From Sphingobium herbicidovorans (GTDB lineage Bacteria > Pseudomonadota > Alphaproteobacteria > Sphingomonadales > Sphingomonadaceae): a stretch of 64,000 nt of DNA. Positions 24,519 to 62,900 of this stretch are shown in pieces. The position numbers and the translations under genes were made by a program. Position 1 is the stretch's first letter; the number at the start of each line of letters is the position of its first letter. The notes under the pieces were generated by a model. The model was not told the origin of the DNA. It searched no databases and was given only the letters and a program-made list of their open reading frames with translations. Location of the stretch: the NCBI RefSeq assembly GCF_002080435.1, contig NZ_CP020539.1:434001-498000 (forward strand). The letters run 5' to 3'.

Positions 24519-24674
24519 TCCGTCCTCCACGCCCGCGCCACGACAAACGGCCGGGACGCGCGCCAGGCGAACGACGGGCGCACGCCAGCGCGGCCAGGAC
24601 CGCACCCAAAATTCGTCGCTCAAACGGAGAACCGAGCCGTGACCATCCCCTGGATCATGGCAAGAGCGACCTTT

Positions 24675-24878
24675 GCTCCGGCAGGTCTCCTGGCTTGCGG
24701 GTCATAGCGTTGGCATGGGCCTTCCCGGATCGCTCCAGTGGCTTGACCGTCCCTTGGCAAAGGTCCGGCCTGTCCATGCCTTGCTCGCCGCTCACAGTTG
24801 CAGGGACAGCCACGGATTAGGGAGGATAGCCTCCCGCACCGCGTTCCCATTTAAGTCCCTTGCGGGACACCGGCGCGA
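24675..24878 (-). promoter_or_regulatory. Cobalamin (AdoCbl) riboswitch upstream of cobG
   Basis: On the minus strand the order of conserved elements is typical: a GCCGGTG start, AATGGGAA, the core CCCTGCAACTGTGAGCGG, GCCACTGG, and the B12-box CCCGCAAGCCAGGAGACCTGCC at its 3' end (given here in overlapping parts). It lies about 155 bp before cobG and should shut off cobGHIJ when adenosylcobalamin is plentiful. The expression platform between 24519 and 24675 is GC-rich and probably acts on translation or termination; I could not resolve which. Confidence 0.93.
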
Positions 24879-25019
24879 TCGTTGAACCGGGCATGACCCG
24901 GCTCGCCGCGCTTCATAGGGCGGATGCAGGCGGAAGGGAAGTGGGCAGCGACGGCTTGCTTGCCCCTGCCATTACCGAAGGCTAATCCCTTCGCAGAATA
25001 ACAACATGGAGAGAAGATA

Positions 25020-30200: not shown

Positions 30201-30953
30201 CAAAAAATCCCGGACGAACGGCTCGCGCAGCGCCCGGACATGGACAGGCAGGACGTTCAGCCCCGCCTGCTCCAGCCCATCGATCATCGCGTTCACCGCC
30301 TCCAGCGTGCCGGCGATCAACAGGGCGCGGTAGAAGAGGAAGAGGGCGGTGGGCCGACCGGCGACCCAGCCTGCCTTCACCTGATCCAGCATGGGCCGCT
30401 CGACGCCCGGCAGATACAGGCCCGCGTCTGCCACCGGGACCGGTGCGTCGGGCATTCCGGCATCGAAGCCCGCTACCTGCGCGGCTGTCTTGAGGAAGGA
30501 TGTCGCATTGGCAATGCCGCCCTGCCGCAGATAGTCGCGCAGCCGGTCGCATATGTCGGGCGGCAGGGTGGATGCACAGCGCAGGTCGGGATCATCCTCC
30601 CGACCATCGGCTATGGCGGCAAAGGCGATGCCCCTTTCCCGCGCAATATTGGCAATTTCGTCAATGCCATAGGGCCAATAGCTCTTACCGCCCAACAGGA
30701 CCACGCAGACGAATTTGGCGTGGGCAATCACCTTTTCGACATAGAGATCGACCGAATAGGGATGTTTCAGCTGCAACAGGTTCGCCAGACGCACGGTGGG
30801 TCCGCCATCTCCCAGCGCCGCGGCGGCGCTGGCGAAACAGGCAAGGTCGCTGTCCGCCACGGTCAGCAGCACGATGTCGCCCGGACTCTGGCCAAGGTCG
30901 ATCGCTTCATCGCCGTTGGAAACGGCCCCGGGCGTGGCGGTCAGCAGGTGCAT
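27232..30953 (-). CDS. cobN: CobN, cobaltochelatase large subunit (frameshifted at 29520-29524)
   Basis: The N-terminal half (MHLLTATPGAVS to AVTDRWG) and C-terminal half (DPASDPFVRDEAF, GYNIDPKSSYHDPALPPPHGYLAF, HVGKHGNLEWLPGKA and on to the end) are in different frames. They join at a run of five G on the coding strand (29520-29524), where a sixth G restores TGG GGG GAT and a product of about 1240 residues, normal for CobN. CobN inserts cobalt into hydrogenobyrinic acid a,c-diamide together with CobS and CobT, neither of which is in this window. The ATG shares one base with the cobW stop. Confidence 0.92.
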
Positions 30954-33039: not shown

Positions 33040-33228
33040 CGGAGACCAGTCTCCCGTCGGCGTCAGCGAAACTTGACGGGAACCTCCGCATCGCGGCCGA
33101 CACGGTGCGCCGGACGGACACCCAAACGGCGCCCGGCACGCATGCCGGTGCAGCTCCCGCCGCACGCGTCGCTCAGACGGAAAACCGTGCCCCGGCCATC
33201 CCCTGGACCAAAGCAAGAGCGACCAGAC

Positions 33229-33447
33229 GCTGGCAGGTCTCCTGGCTTGCGGGTCATCGCTCGACACATGGCCTTCCCAGGCCTCGCAGGATTTAGCGTC
33301 CGGCCCAGTGGCTGACCCCCGATCGTCACGGAAGGTCGATATGCGTCTCGCTCACCGCTTACAGTTGCAGGGACAGCCGCGGATTTGGATGCCTCAAGCA
33401 CCCGCACCGCATTCCCATTTTAAGCCCCTTGCGGGGCACCGGCGCGA
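33229..33447 (-). promoter_or_regulatory. Cobalamin riboswitch upstream of the NiCoT-cobW-cobN operon
   Basis: The minus strand shows GCCGGTGCCCCGC, AATGGGAA, the core TCCCTGCAACTGTAAGCGG, GCCACTGGG and the 3' box GCAAGCCAGGAGACCTGCC. It ends about 190 nt before the transporter start. By analogy with known AdoCbl riboswitches it should repress cobalt uptake and insertion when B12 is high. It is the second of three copies in the window and its core nearly repeats the one at 24675-24878. Confidence 0.93.
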
Positions 33448-33507
33448 TCAATGCCGTGCATAGAGAGCTTGGGGGACAAAGGGAAGCGGGAAGGAATTGA
33501 AATAAAA

Positions 33508-37677: not shown

Positions 37678-37738
37678 CGTGCGCCCTGAGCTTGTCGAAG
37701 GGCGCGGGCGGGCTTCGAAAAGCCCCACCCGAACGGAG
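37678..37738. repeat. Second, degenerate copy of the CTGAGC-TGTCGAAG palindrome
   Basis: CCCTGAGCTTGTCGAAGGGCG on the left is matched by a partly decayed right arm (GGCTTCGAAAAGCCCCACCCG plus AACGG). It lies between the alpha-glucosidase start and the third cobalamin riboswitch. It is related to the copy at 25899-25975 but its right arm has lost the GACAAGCTCAG part. Confidence 0.65.
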
Positions 37739-37756
37739 ACGAGGGGCCATCTGAAG

Positions 37757-37915
37757 CGCGCTGCTCTAAGAGGGAAGTCGGGTGCAAAACCCGCGCTGCC
37801 CCTGCAACTGTAAGCGGTGAGCGGACCGGCCACAGCGCCATTGGGGATCAGGATTTCCCCGAGAAGGCGGCCGGAACGCATTGACCCGTGAGCCAGGAGA
37901 CCTGCCTGACGCAGT
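37757..37915 (+). promoter_or_regulatory. Cobalamin riboswitch upstream of the DUF1636-cobT operon
   Basis: The plus strand shows AAGAGGGAAGTCGGGTGCAAA, the core GCCCCTGCAACTGTAAGCGG, a GCCA-ATTGGGGA element and the 3' box GTGAGCCAGGAGACCTGCC. It should control the lower-ligand and late-assembly operon. About 145 nt separate it from the first mini-ORF. Within that stretch CAGCCCTCTG...CAGAGGCTG (37995-38030) can form a terminator-like stem with a short T run, a plausible expression platform. Confidence 0.92.
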
Positions 37916-38060
37916 CGTTCTTCGACCGGACAGGGTGTGCCGGGCGAACGGGGTTTCCCTCGCGTAGCGACAGCCATCGCCTTGCCGGTTCGGTCGCACA
38001 GCCCTCTGCGCGTCCGCGCCCAGAGGCTGTTTGCGGGTCAAGGAAGCGAGGGGGACCATC

Positions 38061-45249: not shown

Positions 45250-45275
45250 TCCGCACTCTTTCGCACTGAACAGGG

Positions 45276-45310
45276 AAAGCCCGCTGCCCCGCGCAGCGGG
45301 CTTTCTTTTT
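45276..45310 (+). terminator. Rho-independent terminator of pntAB-pntB
   Basis: AAAGCCCGCTG (45276-45286) pairs perfectly with CAGCGGGCTTT (45294-45304), followed by CTTTTT. The loop is CCCCGCG. This is a textbook intrinsic terminator right after pntB. Confidence 0.93.
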
Positions 45311-46384: not shown

Positions 46385-47062
46385 TCAGCCGACGGTTTCC
46401 GCCGGGGCCGGGGCGGCCTTGGCGCGCGGCTTGCGGGCCGCTTTTTCGGCCTTGACCGCTTTTGCCGCCTTGGGCGCTTCGACCGACTTTGCCGGAGCCT
46501 GTGCCGGAGCCTTCGCTGCGGGCTTGGCAGGCGCCTTGGCCGGCTTTGCTGCCTTGGCCTTGGCCGCAGGGGCTTTCGCTCCGCTTGCCGCCGCTGCGGC
46601 CTTGGGCGCCTTTACCGTGGCGTCGGCCGCCTTCTCTGCGCCAGCCGCAGCCGCGGGGACGGGCTTGCGGCCAAGGCCAAGGCGCGTGGCGACGGCGCGG
46701 CGGGCCTCGGAATAGCTCGGCGCGACCAGCGGATAGGATTTGGGCAGGTTATAGCGCTGGCGATAGTCGTCCGGCGACAGGCCGTGGGTCGCCAGATGCC
46801 GTTTCAGCGTCTTGTACGGCTTGCCGTCGATCATGCTCAAAATATGTTCGGGCGACGACAGGCTTTTGCGCACGGAAACTGCGGGCGTGTAAGTCGCGGC
46901 CTGTGCTTCGCCAGCATCGCTCGACAGATCATCAGTCAACGCGGCGCGCGTTGTACGGATCAGGTCGGCCAGCGTTTCGCTGGGAACCGAGTTGTTGGAG
47001 ACAAACGCGCTCAACAGCTGAACAGTGAGCGTCGTGATGTCAGGCTGCGAATTTTCAGACAT
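46385..47062 (-). CDS. MucR/Ros-family regulator with long Ala/Lys/Pro-rich C-terminal tail
   Basis: The product has about 225 residues from the ATG at 47062 (MSENSQPDITT). Residues ~60-135 match the MucR core: AVSVRKSLSSPEHILSMIDG, YKTLKRHLATHGLSPDDYRQ and LPKSYPLVAPSYSEARR plus GLGRKP. The zinc-finger Cys pair of Ros is absent (HILSMIDG), while the HxxxH-like His residues remain, as in some MucR variants. The last ~90 residues are a low-complexity AAKAPAKPAAKAPAQ tail resembling histone H1/HC-type tails. Normal MucR is about 140 residues. It is probably a nucleoid-associated or global regulator. Confidence 0.85.
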   Translation of the reverse strand: MSENSQPDITTLTVQLLSAFVSNNSVPSETLADLIRTTRAALTDDLSSDAGEAQAATYTPAVSVRKSLSSPEHILSMIDGKPYKTLKRHLATHGLSPDDYRQRYNLPKSYPLVAPSYSEARRAVATRLGLGRKPVPAAAAGAEKAADATVKAPKAAAAASGAKAPAAKAKAAKPAKAPAKPAAKAPAQAPAKSVEAPKAAKAVKAEKAARKPRAKAAPAPAETVG

Positions 47063-47346: not shown

Positions 47347-47376
47347 AAAAAAAAGGCCGGTCCCGAAGGACCAGCC
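47347..47376 (-). terminator. Rho-independent terminator with UUCG tetraloop
   Basis: Minus strand GGCTGGTCC-TTCG-GGACCGGCC is a 9-bp stem (one G-U pair) capped by the extra-stable UUCG loop, followed by eight T (47354-47347). It terminates minus-strand transcription from hup and/or the candidate sRNA. Confidence 0.92.
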
Positions 47377-47443
47377 AGCTGAGTTTTTAGGAGAGGATGC
47401 CTGAAAGGCAGGGACGCCTCTGGCCCCGCGGGCCTCTCCTGAC
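47347..47443 (-). ncRNA. Candidate small RNA (structured, own terminator)
   Basis: On the minus strand a ~97-nt stretch begins AGGAGAGG (47440-47433), which pairs with CCTCTCCT (47396-47389). Inside are two perfect short hairpins, GGCCC-GCG-GGGCC-like (47422-47434) and TGCCT-TTC-AGGCA (47398-47410). A linker then leads to an intrinsic terminator with a UUCG tetraloop and eight U. A 19-bp palindrome overlaps the expected -35 region, and GATCTA could be a -10. It lies 88 nt downstream of the hup stop on the same strand, so it might instead be a hup 3'-UTR product. No ORF is present. Rfam family unknown. Confidence 0.55.
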
Positions 47444-47464
47444 AATTGTTTAGATCGCTACTTC

Positions 47465-47483
47465 GATTGCATGTCATGCAATC
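47465..47483. promoter_or_regulatory. Perfect 19-bp palindrome between hup and the candidate sRNA
   Basis: GATTGCATG-T-CATGCAATC is a perfect 9-1-9 palindrome, better suited to a dimeric DNA-binding protein than to an RNA hairpin. It covers TTGCAT, a possible -35 element about 40 bp before the presumed sRNA 5' end. The cognate regulator is unknown. Confidence 0.6.
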
Positions 47484-47530
47484 GTAACATAGCGGCGCTC
47501 ACTCCCCTTTCAGAAAGGCGCGCGCGGCGT

Positions 47531-47806
47531 TCAGCCGTTCAGCTGGTCCTTGACCGCCTTGGCAGGCGTGAAGGTCAGCTTCTTGGAAGCAGCGATCTGG
47601 ATGGTCGCGCCGGTCGACGGATTGCGGCCTTCGCGCGCGGGCTGGTCCTTGACCTTGAACTTGCCAAAACCGCTCAACGAAACTTCTTCACCCTTGGCGG
47701 CGGCGCTGGCGATGGCGGTGAAAACCCCATCGACATATTTGCGGGCATCGGCCTTGGTCAGGCCATGCTCGGCGGCAACAGCTTCGGCGAGTTCGGTATT
47801 GTTCAT
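47531..47806 (-). CDS. hup: HU family DNA-binding protein
   Basis: The 91-residue protein has the complete HU pattern: MNNTELAEAVAAEHGLTKADA, SLSGFGKFKVKDQPAREGRNPSTG with the beta-arm RNPSTG, and IQIAASKKLTFTPAKAVKD. It is a histone-like nucleoid protein. GGGAG lies 7 nt before the ATG. The 187 bp upstream (to 47993) hold the promoter region and no gene that I can see. Confidence 0.97.
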   Translation of the reverse strand: MNNTELAEAVAAEHGLTKADARKYVDGVFTAIASAAAKGEEVSLSGFGKFKVKDQPAREGRNPSTGATIQIAASKKLTFTPAKAVKDQLNG

Positions 47807-59920: not shown

Positions 59921-62900
59921 ATGACTCAACTGACGCCACAATATTGCAAGAGACACAGTTCCGCGCCGCTGAGCCGCTCCTTGGCCTGGATTATTGCGGG
60001 CAGCGGTATGCTGGCCGCCCCAGCGTCGGGGCAAATGCCGCGTCAGTCCGCGGAAGGTGGACAACAGCTTCACCAACGCCAAGCGAACACGCCCAGCACC
60101 GCCGCTGTCGCCGCGAGGGTGCCTGCGTCTTCATCGATCGATCCTCTGGAACGGGGGTTCCACGCACCGCCGGACTCGGCCAAGCCGCGGGTGTGGTGGC
60201 ATTGGATGAACGGCAACGTCAGCAAGGACGGGATCACCAAAGACCTGGCATGGATGAAGCGGGTCGGCATCGGCGGCGTGCAGAACTTCGACGCCGGCTT
60301 GACCACGCCTCAGATCGTTGATCGTCGGCTGATCTATATGACACCGGAATGGAAGGACGCCTTCCGCTACGCGGTCGACCTTGCCGAAAAGTCCGGCCTT
60401 GAATTCACCATCGCTTCATCACCGGGCTGGAGTGAGACAGGCGGACCATGGGTTGCGCCCGAAGATGGAATGAAGAAGCTCGTCTGGAGCGAGACGACGC
60501 TGAAAGGAGGTCGGCGTTTCGTCGGCAAACTTGCTACGCCGCCCAGCCAGACCGGCCCATTCCAGGCCATATCCCTGGCAAGGCCGGAGGCATCGAGCGC
60601 AGCAATCCCCACCAGCTTCTACGCCGATGCTCTGGTTCTGGCATTTCCGCTGGATACGAGCGCGGCTCTGTCGCGGCCCAAGCGCGTCACGGCCGGGGGC
60701 ATGGTCGTCGATCCCGCCGCCCTGTTCGATGCGGACATGACGACGGGGATCGACATCCCGAAGGGAAGCGCGTCCGAGCCGGCGGCGATCGTCCTGCAAT
60801 ATGACGCTCCGCAGACCATCCGCGCGGTTTCCAGCCTCGTTCGCAGCGCTGGGTTCACTGCGGTTCCTCCACAGCTGGAGGCGAGCGACGATGGCAAGAC
60901 CTGGCGGCGTGTCGCAACTCTCACGGCGGGCTCGATACCGTCGACGGCCAGCTTCGCGCCGGTAACCGGCCGGTTCTTCCGGCTGCTGTTCACGCCGAGC
61001 ACCGGTTCGGGTCGCCTCGCCGGATTTGCCCCCGCTCCTGGCTTCGACATCTCCGGTGGCATCGAAATGGGCGGCGCACCACAGCGCGCCGGTGTGTTCG
61101 ACCTTCAGCTGACGGGTGAGGCGAAAGTCAACGCGTTCGAGCGGAAGGCCGGCTTCGGGGTTGTCGACGACTATTTTGCGCTCGACAAGGATGTAGGTAG
61201 CGATTCCGCGGGCATAGCTCCGACGTCCGTAATCAACCTGACGACCCGGATGGGCGCCGACGGAAAGCTTGACTGGACACCGCCACCGGGACGCTGGAAG
61301 GTTCTTCGGCTAGGCTATTCCTTGACGGGATCGGCGAACTCGCCTGCCAGTCCGGAGGCCACCGGCCTTGAAGTCGACAAGTATGACGGAACCGCAGTAC
61401 GAGCCTATCTAAGTACATATCTCGGTATGTATCGCGACACCGTCGGGCCGGATTTGATCGGTAAGCAGGGCGTGCGCGCCCTGCTTACCGACAGCATCGA
61501 GGCAGGACCATCCAATTGGACCCCGCGCATCACCGAACAGTTCAAAGCCCTGCGCGGCTATGATCCGCTGCCCTGGCTACCGGCTTTGACGGGAACGATC
61601 ATCGGGTCTCGCAGCCAGAGCGACCGGTTCCTGTTCGATTACCGCCGTACGCTTGGCGAACTGATCGCCAGCGAACATTATGGCCAGATCGCCGACTTTG
61701 CCCATGAAAACGGACTGATCGTCTATGGTGAGTCCCTGGAAGGCACACGCCATACTTTAGGCGACGACATCGACATGCGTCGCTACGCCGACATTCCGAT
61801 GGCGGCTTTCTGGAGCTATGCAAAAGGGAAGAAGCCGGAATCGCTGTATGTGGCGGATGTCAGGGGAGCGGCATCCACGGCCAACATTTACGGCCGCAGG
61901 CTGGTGGCCGCGGAATCGCTGACGTCGATGTTTGCACCGTGGGCCCACTCTCCGGCGGATTTGAAGCCGGTGATCGATGCGGAATTTATCTATGGCGTGA
62001 ACCGGCCGGTAATCCACACATCGGTGCATCAGCCAGTGGATGACAAACTGCCTAGCCTGTCGCTGAAGATCTTCGGTCAATATTTCAACCGGCACGATAC
62101 GTGGGCAGAGATGGCGCGTCCGTGGATGGACTATATGTCACGCTCAAGCTTCATGCTGCAGCAGGGGCGGAACGTGTCGGACGTCGCCTATCTGTACGGC
62201 GAAGAAGCTCCGGTGGGCGTGATGAACAGCGAAAAGCCGCTTGCTGATCTTCCGGTCCGCTACGGCTTTGATTTTGTTAGCGCCAATTCTCTGCTTACTC
62301 AGTTTTCCGTCGACAACGGCCTCGTCCTTACCCAAGGCGGTGCTCGCTACAAGCTCCTTTATTTAGGCGGGCAATCCGATCGCATGAGCTTGCCCGTGCT
62401 ACGCAAGCTGCACGACCTGGTGCGAGCCGGCGCTACCCTGGTTGGTCACGCGCCGGTCGCTTCACTCGGCCTTGCTGCCGACCCGGCTGAGTTCGACCGC
62501 CTGGTCAAACAGATGTGGGCGGGGGGCGAGCAGACGGCCCTTGGTCTTGGACGCGTGATCGCAAGCCGCCAACCCGAGACCGTTCTCGCTTCGATGGGTG
62601 TGCTGCCTGATTTCGATTATGAGAAAGTCGATCCAGACAGCGAGTTGTTGTTCCGACACCGCAGCCTGGACGATGGCGAAGTATATTTCGTAAGCAATCG
62701 GCTCGGCCCCTCGCAGAACATAAACGCGACGTTCCGCGTCGCTGGAAAGGCCGCCGAGATCTGGCGGGCGGACACCGGCACTATCGAGCCTGTTTCGTAC
62801 CGCATCGACGGCAGCCGGACCGTCGTGCCGCTGAACATGGGTTCGCAAGAGTCGTTCTTCGTCGTGTTCCGCAAGCCTGCGGCTGTGGCGCAGCAAACCA

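Follow-up and report, generated by a model that had tools for sequence, protein, structure and literature searches.

LysR-type activators usually bind a 4-N7-4 repeat near -64 together with a second site over the -35. Such regulators can act on the promoter of a small RNA (sRNA), as GcvA does on gcvB, the two genes forming a divergent pair. In the part of the literature available, AbcR1 is activated by LsrB, whose site there spans -61 to -49 (PMC8844928). Among sphingomonads, SuhB of Sphingopyxis granuli TFA is a 61-nt RNA which acts with Hfq on the 5' UTR of thnR and whose level is high at high growth rate; under that condition it represses pollutant-degradation genes, and the accessible part of the report leaves its own transcriptional control open (PMC6563040). 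The presence of several suhB copies in a sphingomonad is not new, since three Rfam suhB copies are listed for Novosphingobium PP1Y in the accessible part of another report (PMC4059872). In a literature that was mainly open access, we found neither a common promoter motif nor a LysR-type regulator described for sphingomonad suhB-type RNAs.

The window (the whole stretch of 64,000 nucleotides of Sphingobium herbicidovorans analyzed here) carries on its minus strand, between an HU gene and a MucR-like gene, an sRNA gene that an earlier note, made from the letters alone, had presented as new. The Rfam/Infernal search which that note proposed for its candidate returned RF00519 (suhB/MmgR) at 47416-47340 of the minus strand, over the full model length and at 49.1 bits, where the gathering score is 41. 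Because of this match above the gathering score, the RNA is not new: it is a member of the Rfam suhB/MmgR family and one of several copies. Other elements of the earlier description stand. Both neighbours match the expected Pfam families, the hairpin GCCTTTCAGGC is present on the minus strand, the intrinsic terminator is strong (Table 1), and coding potential seems absent: the overlapping ORFs (two of 43 and 52 aa on the sRNA strand, one of 65 aa on the opposite strand) lack signs of being genes.

Table 1. Features of the hup-linked sRNA locus (positions in the window; -, minus strand;., no strand assigned)
Feature	Position	Strand	Basis or remark
Inferred mature sRNA of about 64 nt, made up of a 5' hairpin, a C-rich seed without pairing and a terminator	47347..47410	-	RF00519 and sibling register
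Seed CATCCTCTCCTAA	47387..47399	-	Complement of a Shine-Dalgarno sequence plus ATG
Intrinsic terminator	47347..47376	-	9-bp stem (47376-47355), UUCG loop, eight T (47354-47347)
Inferred -10, CAGAGG, weak	47417..47422	-	Sibling register
Inferred -35, TTGTCA	47440..47445	-	Sibling register; 17 nt before the -10
Box B position	47442..47452	-	TAAACAATTGT replaces TTCGCAnTTGC and is retained in hup-linked orthologs
Box A	47464..47484	.	Perfect 21-bp palindrome (10-1-10) enclosing TTGC-N7-GCAA
AGGAGAGG, seed complement in the promoter spacer	47433..47440	-	Hup-linked clade only
HU gene	47531..47806	-	PF00216; neighbour, outside the proposed mechanism
MucR-like gene	46385..47062	-	PF05443; neighbour

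According to RNA fold predictions, the seed is unpaired (at least 7 of 8 nt) in all 163 distinct sequences that hold it, L098 and L127 being left out. In the family terminator, both sides of the stem carry changes that preserve pairing; at single positions, between 1 and 38 of the 164 sequences are unpaired. A terminator and a single-stranded core after a weak hairpin, which belong to the description of alphaR8 RNAs, are found here in the consensus fold and in the 163 unpaired seeds. The core of the window sRNA reads CAUCCUCUCCUAA and not the strict alphaR8 core UUUCCUCCCU; by this published core it is not a strict alphaR8 member.

In the whole genome, RF00519 gives seven matches on three contigs, six of them above the gathering score. 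The seventh (L007, 36.2 bits, below the cut-off) reads CUCCUCCCU, which is closer to the alphaR8 core. The sibling L001 adjoins a LysR-type gene in divergent orientation, and the neighbours of the three other siblings without an HU gene beside them are genes that we take to be ABC-F-like, ftsK-like and lolA-like, or phosphomannomutase-like and FadL-like. Two further loci carry the exact core. At L345:1501-1515 (G000:C1:2559686-2559700, minus strand), the core AGGCATCCTCTCCTA precedes a hairpin between phage-like ORFs; RF00519 does not match at this locus, which is perhaps a phage-borne copy or a mimic of the sRNA. At L364:1463-1529 (G000:C4:13947-13961, minus strand), a sibling-like RNA with a box-B-like stretch upstream stands beside a transposase-like ORF (RF00519 28.1 bits, below the cut-off), a setting that suggests mobile copies. 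The phage-like and transposase-like calls were read from ORF translations rather than from database matches.

A consensus sigma-70 scan gave no promoter at the window sRNA. We aligned 114 sibling upstream regions (112 distinct) from the genome of the window and 24 congeners, anchored on the RNA core; the weak L007 was excluded from the profile, the duplicate loci L008-L022 and L048 were skipped, and the loci are part of a longer list of places. In this profile a first element, box A (TTGC-N7-GCAA within RTTGCA-N5-TGCAAYC), begins 79-81 bases before the core. A second one, box B (TTTCGCAnTTGC), lies about 51 bases before the core, and its TTGC forms part of the -35. After 17 nt follows a -10 resembling CACATA; the inferred start falls about 9 bases before the core, with the centre of box A about 64 bp upstream of it.

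As this -35/-10 register is common to the siblings, the window sRNA would start at about 47410, instead of at 47440-47450 as had been proposed, and GATCTA (47456-47451), previously read as the -10, falls outside the register. The palindrome described in the earlier note exists and is perfect, but it measures 21 bp (10-1-10) and not 19 (9-1-9), and its place is not over the -35 that the siblings use but upstream of that element. Only one other perfect repeat with arms of at least 10 and a spacer of 0-1 occurs in the 64-kb window, a G+C-rich one at 30812-30832. The window also contains long perfect inverted repeats at 61458-61491 (15-4-15) and 45275-45305 (13-5-13), and, within a span of 14 kb, three cobalamin riboswitches that score above the gathering threshold (24663-24889 and 33215-33458 on the minus strand, 37727-37923 on the plus strand).

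The palindrome is a promoter box common to the siblings and is not local to hup. Box A with relaxed ends (TGC-N7-GCA) stands in register in 110 of the 112 distinct same-genus upstream regions (25 genomes), and box B, allowing 2 mismatches or fewer, covers the -35 in 105; the means for shuffled sequences were 0.12 and 0.36, respectively. The strict repeat with its 7-base spacer is present in 81/112, whereas spacers of 3-6 and 8-12 bases give at most 3. Among loci with the core in other genera of the family, box A was in register in 50/64 (14 without) and box B was found in 52/64 (12 without), against shuffled means of 0.06 and 0.18; these 64 do not include 5 of the 40 fetched family loci, which lack the core and come from regulator-less genomes (L371-L375; G045, G052, and G092). 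When public stretches were chosen by box B plus core (at least 120; 121 matches), box A was present in 103 of the matches listed. Most of the 80 titles listed for these stretches belong to sphingomonads (Sphingobium, Sphingomonas, Novosphingobium, Sphingopyxis, and Erythrobacter, among others), with a few metagenome bins. One Sphingopyxis locus (L247) has the core and box B, without box A in register and without the regulator described below in its 8 kb.

Searching the genome for the 17-base core of box A with 3 mismatches or fewer gave 14 sites. Two of these belong to L004 and L006 and stand 49 bases from the sibling RNA; at the window copy the distance is 50. Two loci that are not sRNA loci, L136 and L138 (G000:C1:2076308-2076347 and C1:2898849-2898888), show box A and then, at the same distance, TTTGCGATTGT (3 mismatches to the composite). 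One of them precedes a short ORF with a terminator-like hairpin and the other an ORF with a signal-peptide-like start; both are possible further targets of the regulator. Compared by eye, box A does not contain the LsrB/VtlR site GCAT-N3-TG-N3-T, its GCA-N5-TGC being one base wider than the consensus as given in the available part of that report (PMC8844928). The sites of NtrC, CRP, PhaR, Mur/Fur, and sigma-54 were considered and set aside, as their spacing seemed unsuitable.

The gene beside L001 encodes a LysR-type protein of 293 aa, with the HTH_1 (PF00126, 63.3 bits) and LysR_substrate (PF03466, 110.2 bits) domains both above cut-off. Its best match among 48 NCBIfam families is GcvA (PRK11139) with 196.4 bits, below the curated cut-off of 288. 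In the same genus, 19 of the 25 genomes show this regulator (its start or the whole gene) beside an sRNA in the fetched locus, and the pair is divergent in 19/19. In the loci of G006 and G008 only the first residues of the regulator are visible, at the edge, and for the other four same-genus genomes the sibling fetch was partial. Adjacent pairs are likewise all divergent among the 45 regulators of the family (18/18), in the public stretches listed (39/39), and among those picked by eye from the matches listed (17/17). In 27 of the 45 regulator-bearing family genomes, no sRNA match lies within 500 bp of the regulator.

An ortholog of the regulator (E <=1e-60) was detected in 45 of the 52 genomes of the family, once in each, and in none of 14 genomes from other families of the order; 13 of those 14 carry an RF00519 RNA above cut-off. 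The strict repeat TTGC-N7-GCAA is absent from the 21 sRNA loci of these other-family genomes. A relaxed two-box pattern gives one weak match in them (L158) and none in L371-L373; as it recovers only 26/40 and 20/29 loci of the positive sets, this pattern is not very sensitive. Within the family, the presence of the regulator agrees with that of an above-cut-off sRNA in 51/52 genomes, the exception being G059, where the sRNA scores 40.5 bits, just under the cut-off. A larger draw of 129 family genomes at least 90% complete, which overlaps the 52 and in which one regulator-less genome was taken as G240, gave agreement between regulator and exact RNA core in 127 (107 with both, 20 with neither). 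The discordant genomes are G177 (regulator without the exact core) and G200 (core without the regulator). The Fisher p value for this co-occurrence is about 3e-21, uncorrected for kinship among the 129 genomes. The exact core and box A are both missing from three weak sRNA-like loci of G045 and G052, two genomes that lack the regulator. Weak RF00519 matches (28.7-32.9 bits) in the regulator-less G045, G052, and G092 (L371, L373, and L375) have a different core, GATCCTCCCCAAGG, and two of them show a TTTGCATTGCAA-like or a TGCATTGCAA stretch at the position of box B.

Judging from position, architecture, and co-occurrence, we consider it likely that box A is the recognition site of this GcvA-like LysR-type regulator, which would control a multi-copy family of sRNAs with an anti-Shine-Dalgarno seed. 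The palindrome pointed out in the earlier note is thus probably a regulator's site. The conservation of box A shows, at the sequence level, a constrained site, and conservation does not name the protein that binds it. It is conceivable, though unlikely, that box A is bound by some other protein, such as a second LysR-type factor or one of the CRP or TetR type, the divergent GcvA-like gene being another target or an old neighbour: in many genomes the regulator lies away from the sRNA, and box A-like sites without an sRNA exist in the genome. The agreement of regulator and core in nearly all of the 129 genomes and the divergent orientation of every adjacent pair compared argue for the GcvA-like regulator itself. 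The position of the 4-N7-4 repeat, near -64, and the second site that covers the -35 also fit a LysR-type protein.

The sRNA of the window is best read as a trans-acting RNA of the SuhB/MmgR type that is present in at least six copies. By analogy with the usual LysR layout and with the site of LsrB at AbcR1, box A may serve as the recognition site and box B as the activation site. The regulator gene often stands in divergent orientation to one sibling, and its product would switch the siblings jointly. The RNAs in turn would keep target mRNAs from being translated, probably with the help of Hfq, in the way reported for Sphingopyxis SuhB and thnR. Sites complementary to the seed with at most one mismatch number 25 in the genome, corresponding to the 6 siblings, the cores of L345 and L364, and 17 others. 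After removal of the 8 RNA cores, seed targets are not in excess in the genome (17 vs 23 for the reversed pattern); the clearest match at a start codon is L354.

The hup-linked form occurs in 5 of 94 genomes of the genus. The outer arms of box A are kept in all five, and box B of the window copy differs at 4/10 positions; the -10 of this copy is weak. Since box A is retained while box B and the -35 are changed, this copy would probably be under the same regulator but respond differently to it. Its promoter spacer also holds the 8-bp complement that the earlier note had read as the closing stem of a three-way junction. The complementarity between AGGAGAGG (47440-47433) and CCTCTCCT (47397-47390) exists: of 8 possible pairs, the five hup-linked orthologs form 8, 8, 7, 8, and 7; among 173 other loci, three reach 7 pairs and none reaches 8. 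A junction that is conserved in the folding of the mature RNA is not supported, because the five loci are close relatives and their stems differ on one side only, a pair being broken by two of the changes. The covariation check found zero compensatory changes, and the junction is confined to the hup-linked clade.

The specificity of this complement for the hup-linked loci would suit an RNA that starts upstream (at about 47444, from GATCTA) or is cut from the hup mRNA, in which AGGAGAGG masks the seed and makes an inactive or switchable variant. In single-sequence fold predictions the seed of such long forms is largely paired, a simple scan of the minus strand detected no terminator-like site between hup and the sRNA, and GATCTA is kept in 4/5 hup-linked loci. 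However, the AGGAGAGG stem falls between the inferred -35 and -10, the elements of the mature form match those of siblings that lack this stem, and the relatedness and pair-breaking changes noted above also weigh against it. We regard this reading as quite improbable, more so than a different box A-binding protein.

A functional tie to nucleoid or growth-phase control, for which the earlier note had invoked the HU and MucR-like neighbours, is very improbable: HU lies within 1.5 kb of only 2 of the 6 above-cut-off siblings (L002 and the window copy L005) and of none of the other four, the MucR-like gene is that close to the window copy only, the hup-linked form is rare in the genus, and the two HU blocks look paralogous. 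The last point follows from L002 (contig C3), which adjoins an HU gene 83% identical to that of the window and a second neighbour of the same kind, 56% identical, so that the link to hup looks like that of a paralogous block.

Taken as a whole, the shared-promoter reading extends to a circuit present in much of the Sphingomonadaceae, which seems reasonably probable, if a little less so than the assignment of box A to the regulator. A single GcvA-like LysR-type regulator would act on box A/box B promoters of siblings distributed over several replicons, and the copies would have spread with their promoter attached; at the hup-linked copy, box B would have been rewired, perhaps with a seed-masked read-through form. 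Since both a candidate gene and an operator can be named, the transcriptional control of SuhB becomes directly testable.

Compared by description, the window sRNA resembles SuhB of Sphingopyxis granuli TFA, both being sphingomonad sRNAs of similar length (61 nt against 64 nt inferred here); in the available part of the report, the growth-rate control of SuhB is described without a regulator, whereas we propose both a candidate regulator and a box common to the siblings (PMC6563040). A locus of Sphingopyxis sp. H050 gives an RF00519 match of 41.4 bits. With the alphaR8 RNAs (MmgR of Sinorhizobium, SisA-D of Caulobacter), it shares a 5' hairpin, a C-rich unpaired core, a terminator, and the occurrence of several siblings in some genomes, as far as the accessible parts of the reports describe them (PMC12559287, PMC7143759). 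It differs in its core, CAUCCUCUCCUAA here versus UUUCCUCCCU there (PMC12559287, available part). In the same part of that report, SisA-D of Caulobacter have no common upstream motif, whereas the sphingomonad siblings share two boxes; if the proposed circuit is true, it would contrast with Caulobacter, where the promoters of the four related siblings are described as unrelated (PMC12559287).

A divergent regulator/sRNA gene pair is also the arrangement of GcvA-gcvB. As in GcvA-GcvB, and as described for LsrB/VtlR-AbcR1 in the accessible parts of two reports (PMC7486931, PMC8844928), a LysR-type regulator would act here on an sRNA promoter. The regulator scores below the GcvA cut-off, and box A differs from the LsrB consensus given in the available part of its report (PMC8844928). 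Unlike GcvA-GcvB and LsrB/VtlR-AbcR1, the system proposed here would place one regulator over a dispersed multi-copy sRNA family and, if true, would add a LysR-sRNA module that feeds such a family.
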